A stretch of 64,000 bases of DNA from Woeseiaceae bacterium. GTDB taxonomy: Bacteria > Pseudomonadota > Gammaproteobacteria > Steroidobacterales > Woeseiaceae. The notes below the pieces were generated by a model. The model searched no databases. It had not been told where the DNA came from and saw nothing but the letters and a program-made list of their open reading frames with translations. Of the stretch, positions 346-52,036 are shown in pieces (the first letter of the stretch is position 1; every line of letters starts with the position of its first letter). Position numbers and translations under genes: made by a program. Location: assembly GCA_030065915.1 (NCBI GenBank), contig JASJCQ010000007.1, forward strand, positions 1 to 64,000, given 5' to 3'.

Positions 346-422
346 TGCGGGGTGGAGCAGTCTGGCAGCTCGTCGGGCTCATAACCCGAAGGTCGCAGGT
401 TCAAATCCTGCCCCCGCTACCA
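346..422 (+). tRNA. Initiator tRNA-fMet (anticodon CAT), CCA encoded
   Basis: 77 nt; TGCGGGGTGGAGCAG...TCGGGCTCATAACCCGA...GGTTCAAATCC...CCCCGCTACCA; GGG/CCC anticodon-stem pairs and unpaired 1-72 position typical of initiators. Confidence 0.95.
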
Positions 423-44673: not shown

Positions 44674-45468
44674 TCAGGCCAGCAGTTGGCCCCGCGAAAT
44701 CGTGACCGCCGTGCCGCCCAGAAAGATGCGTTCGCCGCCAAGCCTGATGCGGACTGTGCCGCCTCTCGGGGAGGCCTGGTAGGCGAGCATGTTTTGCTTT
44801 CCGAGTCGTTCTCCCCAGAACGGTCCGAGGAAGCAGTGAGCTGCACCGGTCACAGGATCTTCGTCGATTCCTATCGCCGGACCGAAGAAGCGCGAAACGA
44901 AGTCAAACTCCGCATCCTTCGACGCTGCGGTGACGACGATCCCTCCGCGAGGCAGGGCGGCCAGCGCGGCCAGGTCGGGTTGCAGGGAACGAAGTTTGGC
45001 TTCGGACGGCAGGAGTGCCAGCAGCTCATTCTTCGACTGCATGACCAACAGCGGCTCGACCGTCAACCCGTCGATGAGCCGCTGGTCAGGTTCCGCCAAT
45101 TGGCTTTGAGTGGCCGGAAGGTCGAGCTCAATGATGTCCCCATCGTTTGAGCAGGAAAGTTCACCGCTCCTGGTTTGGAACCGGATCGGGGAATCGGCAG
45201 GCACGACACCTTCTTCCCACAGTGCATGTGCTGAAGCCAGCGTTGCGTGGCCACACAAGTCCACCTCTACAGTGGGTGTAAACCAACGGAGCGAAAAAGC
45301 GTCTCCCAGACGCGTCACAAAGGCGGTTTCTGAGAGATTCATCTCCGCGGCCACGTGCTGCATCCATCCAGCGTCGCGCTCAGATTCGAGCAGGCATACG
45401 GCAGCCGGATTGCCTGTAAACGGCCTCTCAGCAAAGGCGTCAACGTGCAGGCAGGTGATTTCGGTCAC
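44674..45468 (-). CDS. PhzF-family isomerase/epimerase
   Basis: VDAFAERPFTGNPAAVCLLE; MNLSETAFV; RWFTPTVEVDLCGHATLASAHAL; EDPVTGAAHCFLGPFW; GTG start at 45468. Confidence 0.9.
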   Translation of the reverse strand: MTEITCLHVDAFAERPFTGNPAAVCLLESERDAGWMQHVAAEMNLSETAFVTRLGDAFSLRWFTPTVEVDLCGHATLASAHALWEEGVVPADSPIRFQTRSGELSCSNDGDIIELDLPATQSQLAEPDQRLIDGLTVEPLLVMQSKNELLALLPSEAKLRSLQPDLAALAALPRGGIVVTAASKDAEFDFVSRFFGPAIGIDEDPVTGAAHCFLGPFWGERLGKQNMLAYQASPRGGTVRIRLGGERIFLGGTAVTISRGQLLA

Positions 45469-45564
45469 AGTCAGGGTTCCTCGTCTGAAATTGCGACCGC
45501 CAGGGCGGCGCACGCCAGAAGGCGAGGATACAACGCTACGGGGTTACATTCTTCAGAGCGCGGA

Positions 45565-45594
45565 TTGCACGGCGTGCAACGATTGCCGTATAAT
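45565..45594 (+). promoter_or_regulatory. Sigma70-like promoter of the rimP operon (TTGCAC-N18-TATAAT)
   Basis: Perfect TATAAT and 4/6 TTGACA-like -35 box (TTGCAC) with 18-nt spacing. Confidence 0.7.
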
Positions 45595-45602
45595 CGCGGC
45601 CC

Positions 45603-45664
45603 TGCGCGGTGGTGGGTTGACGAGTTTGCCCGGCTTGACTGAAGGGCCAGCACCTCCGCTACCA
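45603..45664 (+). pseudogene. Candidate decayed tRNA-fMet / tRNA-like element at head of the rimP leader
   Basis: 5' TGCGCGGTGG (9/10 to tRNA-fMet) and 3' CCTCCGCTACCA (11/12), 62 nt vs 77 nt. Confidence 0.4.
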
Positions 45665-45682
45665 AGCTCTTGGTAGAACTGG

Positions 45683-45706
45683 AACCCCCGCTGAGGGGTT
45701 TTTTGT
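45683..45706 (+). terminator. Intrinsic terminator 1 in rimP leader
   Basis: AACCCC-cgctga-GGGGTT followed by T-run. Confidence 0.7.
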
Positions 45707-45740
45707 TGCCTTGCAGGCGACACACCGCGCGTTGACAGGA

Positions 45741-45768
45741 ATGGGCCATTGGCCCATTTTTTTGTTTT
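45741..45768 (+). terminator. Intrinsic terminator 2 in rimP leader
   Basis: ATGGGCC-att-GGCCCATTTTTTTG. Confidence 0.8.
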
Positions 45769-45791
45769 GGAACAAAGGCTTAGAGGTTTAG

Positions 45792-46244
45792 ATGACGTCG
45801 GACGAACTGGTTGAACTGCTGGAACCGACCATCGAACGTCTGGGTTATGAACTGGCCGACCTGGAGGTAAAGCTGGGCGGCAAGGACGGTGTCCTGCGGC
45901 TTTTCATCGATAAGCCGGATGGCATCGATCTCGATGACTGCGAGAAGGTCAGTCACGCGGTGAGTGCGCTGCTCGACGTCGAGGATCCGTTGCCGGGCCA
46001 GTACAACCTGGAGGTCTCGTCGCCAGGTTTGGATAGAACGCTGAAGAAAGTTGAACATTTTCAACGCTTTACTGGTGAAACGGTGAAGATTCAGATGCGA
46101 TTCCCGATAGAGGGGCGCAAGCGGTTCCGGGGCACGTTGGAGTCCTCGAACGAAGAGAACGTTGTGGTTTTAGTGGACGGCCAGTCGCATACGTTACCGA
46201 TAGCAACGATCGACACCGCCCGGTTAGTACCCGAACAGGCGTAA
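45792..46244 (+). CDS. rimP: Ribosome maturation factor RimP
   Basis: LRLFIDKPDGIDLDDCEKVSHAVSALLDVEDPLPGQYNLEVSSPGLDRTL. Confidence 0.95.
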   Translation: MTSDELVELLEPTIERLGYELADLEVKLGGKDGVLRLFIDKPDGIDLDDCEKVSHAVSALLDVEDPLPGQYNLEVSSPGLDRTLKKVEHFQRFTGETVKIQMRFPIEGRKRFRGTLESSNEENVVVLVDGQSHTLPIATIDTARLVPEQA

Positions 46245-51650: not shown

Positions 51651-51766
51651 AAAGGGCCTTTTTTAACTGTAAATATTTGTTTTTGGACTGTTAATAGCCT
51701 TTTCCTGACGCTAGAATACCGCGCTTCCAAAAAGGGCTAAAGACGAAAATACGGAGTTATCTGGAA

Positions 51767-52036
51767 ATGTCACTGTCAAGTGAAGCAAAAGCCAGCATTG
51801 TTGCTGAATACGGCCGAGGAGAGGCCGACACGGGTTCGCCCGAAGTGCAGGTTGCGTTACTGTCTGCACGTATTACTGAGCTGACCGAACACTTCGGTGA
51901 GCACAAGAAAGATCACCACAGCCGTCAGGGTCTGCTCAAGATGGTCAACAAGCGACGCAAGTTGCTTGACTATCTCAAGGCCAACGACCAGGGCCGCTAC
52001 CGCGAGCTGATTTCTCGGCTCGGACTGCGCCGCTAA
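51767..52036 (+). CDS. rpsO: 30S ribosomal protein S15
   Basis: 89 aa; [33 protein letters not shown]. Confidence 0.97.

Follow-up and report, generated by a model that had tools for sequence, protein, structure and literature searches.

Probable remnant of an initiator tRNA gene in the rimP-nusA-infB leader of a Woeseiaceae bacterium

The sequence at 45603-45664 of the window (the whole 64,000-nt stretch of DNA analysed) is best explained as a decayed remnant of the initiator tRNA gene metY, whose promoter and two tandem terminators (T1 and T2) were retained for control of the rimP-nusA-infB operon; the probability of this reading as a whole was put at about 0.85. The initial annotation had suggested, as one possibility, that an initiator tRNA gene decayed here and that its promoter came to drive the operon. 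Sequence comparison strongly supports the metY ancestry, since intact metY was found in the same slot of relatives, intermediate forms were recovered and the similarity was not a chance match. The relic is real and well supported; it lies in a leader of known type and is not a new RNA class.

Two tRNA-fMet-like ends were present after the promoter, as first described (Table 1). When both strands of the window were scanned for a 5' match of at least 9/10 followed 35-110 nt on by a 3' match of at least 11/12, only the real tRNA at 346-422 and the pair at 45603-45664 were recovered; relaxing the limits to at least 8 and at least 10 added no further pairs. When the leader was shuffled 5000 times with its dinucleotides preserved, no such pair arose, so the similarity exceeded chance in the shuffling test that had been proposed as a possible refutation. 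Intact metY genes of the order are preceded by CTGCGGA, so that TGCGGATGCGGGG contains a short direct repeat, TGCGGA/TGCGGG, formed from this spacer and the gene start. The CCTGCG-CGGTGG of the window is what loss of one repeat unit of TGCGGATGCGGGG would leave, and the shortened 5' ends seen in Woeseiaceae are accounted for by such a loss. The 5' match in the window is thus partly composite, consisting of the tRNA start plus the former spacer.

Table 1. Positions of the features discussed, numbered from the first nucleotide of the window
Feature	Position	Strand	Basis or remark
Intact tRNA-fMet, surviving metY	346-422	+	behind a nuoN 3' piece (window 1 to about 247); nuoN-metY order in relatives
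Promoter: TTGCAC (45565-45570), 18-nt spacer, TATAAT (45589-45594), then G+C-rich discriminator	45565-45594	+	sequence; family conservation
metY 5'-end relic TGCGCGGTGG	45603-45612	+	9/10 against tRNA-fMet 346-422; partly overlaps the former CTGCGGA spacer
Hairpin P1, 5' arm GCGG-U-GGUG	45606-45614	+	pairs with 45651-45659
Hairpin P1, 3' arm CACC-U-CCGC	45651-45659	+	in the window, inferred by homology
metY 3'-end relic CCTCCGCTACCA	45653-45664	+	11/12 including CCA against tRNA-fMet 346-422
Hairpin P2, CTACCAA-GCTC-TTGGTAG	45659-45676	+	former tRNA 3' end paired with trailer; directly before T1
Intrinsic terminator T1, AACCCC-CGCTGA-GGGGTT, T-tract	45683-45704	+	pattern in 61/63 family leaders
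Intrinsic terminator T2, AATGGGCCATTGGCCCATT, T-tract	45740-45763	+	general rimP-leader motif; pattern in 62/63 family leaders
rimP, first gene of rimP-nusA-infB	45792-46244	+	

No functional tRNA structure was recovered from the relic. ARAGORN and Rfam, relaxed thresholds included, found no tRNA at 45603-45664, and the tRNA covariance model RF00005 had no match in window positions 45400-45900 at E<=10 (cut-off 29 bits) or, at E<=5, in any of ten relic loci, compared with 64 bits for intact relatives. The window leader showed no tRNA-like fold, and folding of the whole leader was no better than that of its shuffles (z -0.41). The alternative wording of the initial annotation, a tRNA-like regulatory leader, was therefore not borne out as stated. 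A three-arm, D-armless tRNA-like structure drawn by eye for three other leaders (L005, L034 and L039) was rejected, with no Rfam tRNA match and z scores of only 1.3-3.1.

The NusA encoded in the window was 92% identical to that of MAGs labelled Woeseiaceae, one partial match reaching 100%, which very probably places the genome in this family (GTDB family f1 of the searches). The regions upstream of rimP were gathered from the genus, the family (Woeseiaceae) and the order of the window; of 157 genomes in the order, 150 yielded a rimP orthologue. An intact tRNA-fMet occupied the slot upstream of rimP in families f4, f11, f12, f13 and f14 and in part of f15, usually 50-180 nt before rimP and between a promoter and T1/T2. 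The relic thus holds the position of the intact orthologue in relatives. Both terminators were present in most of these families; f12 and f13 showed one only. nuoN preceded rimP in 29 loci, at least one genome contributing two of them, and tRNA-fMet stood between the two genes in every case, indicating that nuoN-metY-rimP was the ancestral order. The parallel drawn earlier with E. coli, where metY precedes rimP, is real, though the local ancestor was nuoN-metY-rimP. Several lineages carried metY 250-800 nt upstream of rimP; where the sequence was read (L091, L069), metY was followed by a terminator of its own, and a second promoter together with T1/T2 preceded rimP, an uncoupled state.

The Woeseiaceae relics were graded by their best local alignment to intact tRNA variants, with z calculated against shuffles. 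Sister genera carried clearer intermediates than the window (z = 3.6): L057 reached 7.5, L054 6.9, L162 6.6, L061 5.7, L051 5.1 and L146 4.0 (5' end), so that the comparison of rimP upstream regions that had been called for did yield alignable intermediates and a graded similarity above chance. The relic in L057 ran for 25 nt from the T-arm through CCA (GGTTtGcATtC-GCCCCCGCTACCA), and the T-arm was likewise retained in L162. The alignment in L051 read CGAA-CtTGCCtCCGCTACCA, and L146 supplied a 5' intermediate, CTGCGGATGC--GGTGGA. A 12/12 tRNA 3' end was found in L054, L057 and L162, where 9/10 of the tRNA 5' end also stood just after TATAAT. The 12/12 3' end recurred in L071/L074 of another family (f9), in which 14 nt were exact including CCCCCGCTACCA, followed by AATTGGTAG. 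At the other extreme, the leader in part of the window's genus (L012, L018, L027 and others) was reduced to 43 nt and a single hairpin; the whole tRNA-like region except P2 was gone, showing that nothing tRNA-specific is needed there.

Across the order, the slot has lost metY repeatedly, about a dozen times. A FastTree phylogeny of RimP from 149 loci gave 13 changes of slot state by Fitch parsimony and contained 18 maximal tRNA-less subtrees, numbers that are rough because the Dollo-like count leans on a tree of a single short gene. Mixed states within f10, f15 and f16, together with the separate f9 relic, indicate that the loss happened more than once.

None of the 63 distinct Woeseiaceae leaders examined held a slot tRNA. 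The working tRNA-fMet of the family still lay directly behind nuoN, as a single copy in nearly all genomes, and rimP was found 4-72 kb beyond it, preceded by the retained promoter, both terminators and a graded relic. Where both genes shared one contig, the tRNA lay upstream of rimP on the same strand, at a distance of 3.9 kb in G085 (a complete, single-contig genome), about 10 kb in G157, 34 kb in G010, 45 kb in the window and 72 kb in G022, indicating that DNA came to lie between metY and rimP. The tRNA-fMet at 346-422 is the surviving copy of the same ancestral locus, 45 kb upstream on the same strand, so a functional copy exists elsewhere in the genome. A second nuoN tail with tRNA-fMet was seen at a contig end of the same genome (G000:C36:1-56), where a full-length nuoN runs to the end of the contig inside the tRNA; the window copy has the nuoN 3' piece only. 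The two copies reflect either an artefact of assembly or a metY locus that was duplicated recently; in the latter case they show that such duplications happen. Across the order, the metY-rimP junction behaved as an insertion hot spot (G085, G004, G043, G050, G157 and others, L263-L267), with inserts of 2-72 kb of differing, ordinary-looking genes and no integrase in those that were read.

Conservation in the Woeseiaceae leaders fell on the promoter, T1 and T2, unlike the body of the slot, which was unconserved. TTGC and GTATAAT were conserved at 90% or more among the 63 leaders, making a real promoter likely; a generic promoter scan did not list it, and TTGCAC agrees with TTGACA at only 3 of 6 places. 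T1 and T2 were both present by pattern in 60 of the 63 leaders, and the same types (CCCC..GGGG and GGGC(C)..GGCCC(A), each with a T-tract) occurred in relatives with intact metY. The best Rfam match in the region was the rimP leader RF01770 at 45646-45762, with 23.0 bits against a cut-off of 47, so the covariance search proposed earlier gave nothing with the tRNA model and a sub-threshold hit with the rimP-leader model. Scores in Woeseiaceae were 23-44 bits, the best (43.6, L013) still below the cut-off; the architecture of RF01770, GGGc..gCCC directly before rimP preceded by CCCg..cGGG, was present in the window. Between T2 and the rimP start (45764-45790), the stretch GTTTTnGAACA..GTTAG was conserved in Woeseiaceae (AACA and TTA at 90% or more), its first half faintly boxA-like. 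Downstream, in the same gene cluster as rimP, an S15 leader (RF00114) was detected at 51701-51823 with 43.1 bits, above its cut-off.

The rimP leader has been described as the most widespread attenuator, and in Gammaproteobacteria tandem CCCg..cGGG and GGGc..gCCC terminators precede rimP, with NusA feedback proposed (PMC2965389). In E. coli, t1 and t2 lie before rimP in metY-nusA-infB, and cold-shock antitermination of the metY-rimP operon has been both reported and disputed (PMC9765468; PMC6511841). The persistence of T1 and T2 after loss of the tRNA argues for a role in the operon and against one in tRNA 3'-end formation; together with the old promoter they probably survive as a control leader for the rimP operon. 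A GGGGCC/GGCCCC-type pairing against T1 was possible in many leaders, but its covariation with T1 (214) equalled that of permuted data (213.5 +/- 3.0). No antiterminator co-varying with T1 was found, which fits a protein-dependent switch better than a purely RNA one.

Hairpin P2 formed all 7 of its 7 base pairs in 36 of the 63 Woeseiaceae leaders but in only 2.4% of shuffles. Among 37 distinct sequences, 95.4% of cells were paired and 6 of the 7 pairs had changed on both sides. Doubly changed cells numbered 32, against 11.0 +/- 2.5 in shuffles and 2-8 in slid registers; relatedness inflates such counts and is retained in the slid-register control. P2 thus shows compensatory changes and is under selection in Woeseiaceae, so that the remnant is not wholly neutral there. 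The CTACCA/TGGTAG pairing was already present beside the intact tRNA in L062, L068, L075, L079 and L094, where pairing with the trailer TGGTAG would make the CCA end inaccessible in the tRNA precursor; it is possibly relevant to tRNA processing. P2 was absent from several tRNA-less leaders outside Woeseiaceae (e.g., L063-L066, L076 and L088). Hairpin P1 (GCGG-U-GGUGU..ACACC-CCGC) co-varied in a small set of seven leaders from congeners or family members, with 96.8% of cells paired and three pairs changed on both sides. It can be drawn in the window, but is not part of the minimum-free-energy fold there.

The following history would account for these observations. From the ancestral order nuoN - promoter - metY - T1 - T2 - rimP-nusA-infB, inserted DNA would have separated metY from rimP in the Woeseiaceae ancestor. 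Both ends of the insert carry metY sequence, with a promoter and tRNA 5' end on the rimP side and the intact copy behind nuoN, and a direct duplication of promoter and metY flanking the insert would be the simplest route. The nuoN-side copy would have stayed functional and the rimP-side copy decayed, because one initiator tRNA gene suffices here; the promoter and tandem terminators would have been kept because they control the downstream operon. Transcription would start at about 45602, many transcripts ending at T1 or T2 as short RNAs some 100 nt long while the others read through into rimP-nusA-infB. Such a scheme agrees with the proposals of attenuation and NusA feedback made for leaders of this type. 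Selection keeps P2, which may serve for pausing or for RNA stability ahead of T1. A bolder version is put forward tentatively, as somewhat doubtful: that the tail of the dead tRNA was co-opted, P2 being a pause or NusA-responsive part of the attenuator that survived independent losses (Woeseiaceae and f9), and that the conversion of a tRNA gene to a cis-regulatory leader has occurred repeatedly.

Two other origins of the tRNA-like ends were weighed. A new internal rimP promoter could have arisen downstream of metY, the ends owing nothing to tRNA ancestry and appearing through hairpin selection. E. coli has a promoter (also named P2) at the 3' side of metY (PMC6511841), and L091, L098, L069, L104 and L105 have metY with a terminator, then a second promoter and a leader free of tRNA similarity. 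However, the 3' ends with T-arm in L057/L162 and the 5' ends after TATAAT in L054/L057/L162 come from the same family and slot, and no promoter lay downstream of an intact metY in the 63 Woeseiaceae leaders, which makes this origin unlikely. We consider it quite improbable, too, that the relic is an attachment-site scar, left by a mobile island that integrated in the metY 3' end and now makes up the 45 kb in between. An intact tRNA and a 3' fragment in direct orientation do flank inserted DNA, and only the 3' part is recognisable in f9 (L071/L074). Yet a promoter belongs to the relic, as does the tRNA 5' end preceded by the CTGCGGA spacer (L146, L054, L057), and an attachment-site copy would carry neither. 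In addition, the window's contig had no tyrosine integrase (the two matches in the genome were on contigs C14 and C34), and the short inserts in G085, G043 and G004 were, by eye, ordinary chromosomal genes that differed between genomes.

Mere chance similarity is scarcely credible. Only 22 positions were compared in the window, but the pair was unique on both strands of the 64 kb, was never reached by shuffling and stood in a slot that holds a real tRNA in relatives. Decay of metY in place, with the promoter and terminators retained, remained the preferred reading.

The arrangement metY-rimP-nusA-infB is a textbook one, and to our knowledge it has been unclear which of the two, tRNA or operon, is served by the terminators upstream of rimP. 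Lineages in which the tRNA is gone and the promoter, T1 and T2 persist amount to a natural deletion experiment on the metY-rimP attenuator, and terminators outliving the tRNA argue for T1/T2 as attenuators of the operon. The repeated losses, together with a covarying hairpin made from the tRNA tail, document successive steps in the conversion of a tRNA gene to an mRNA leader. A literature search for tRNA relics as operon leaders, with most subscription journals outside its scope, returned nothing relevant.

The leader shares with Rfam RF01770 (Naville and Gautheret 2010, PMC2965389) tandem terminators with T-tracts, CCCC..GGGG upstream and GGGC..GCCC downstream. It differs in that Woeseiaceae leaders score below the cut-off and yielded no covarying antiterminator; the published model describes neither a tRNA relic nor P2 ahead of T1. 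As in E. coli metY-rimP-nusA-infB (PMC6511841), an initiator tRNA gene, a promoter and two terminators precede rimP, whereas the tRNA of the window is decayed and its working copy lies 45 kb away behind nuoN. Like other bacterial tRNA pseudogenes, the relic is a decayed tRNA duplicate with a working copy elsewhere; unlike them, it sits between an apparently live promoter and conserved terminators, with a hairpin that is under selection in the family.
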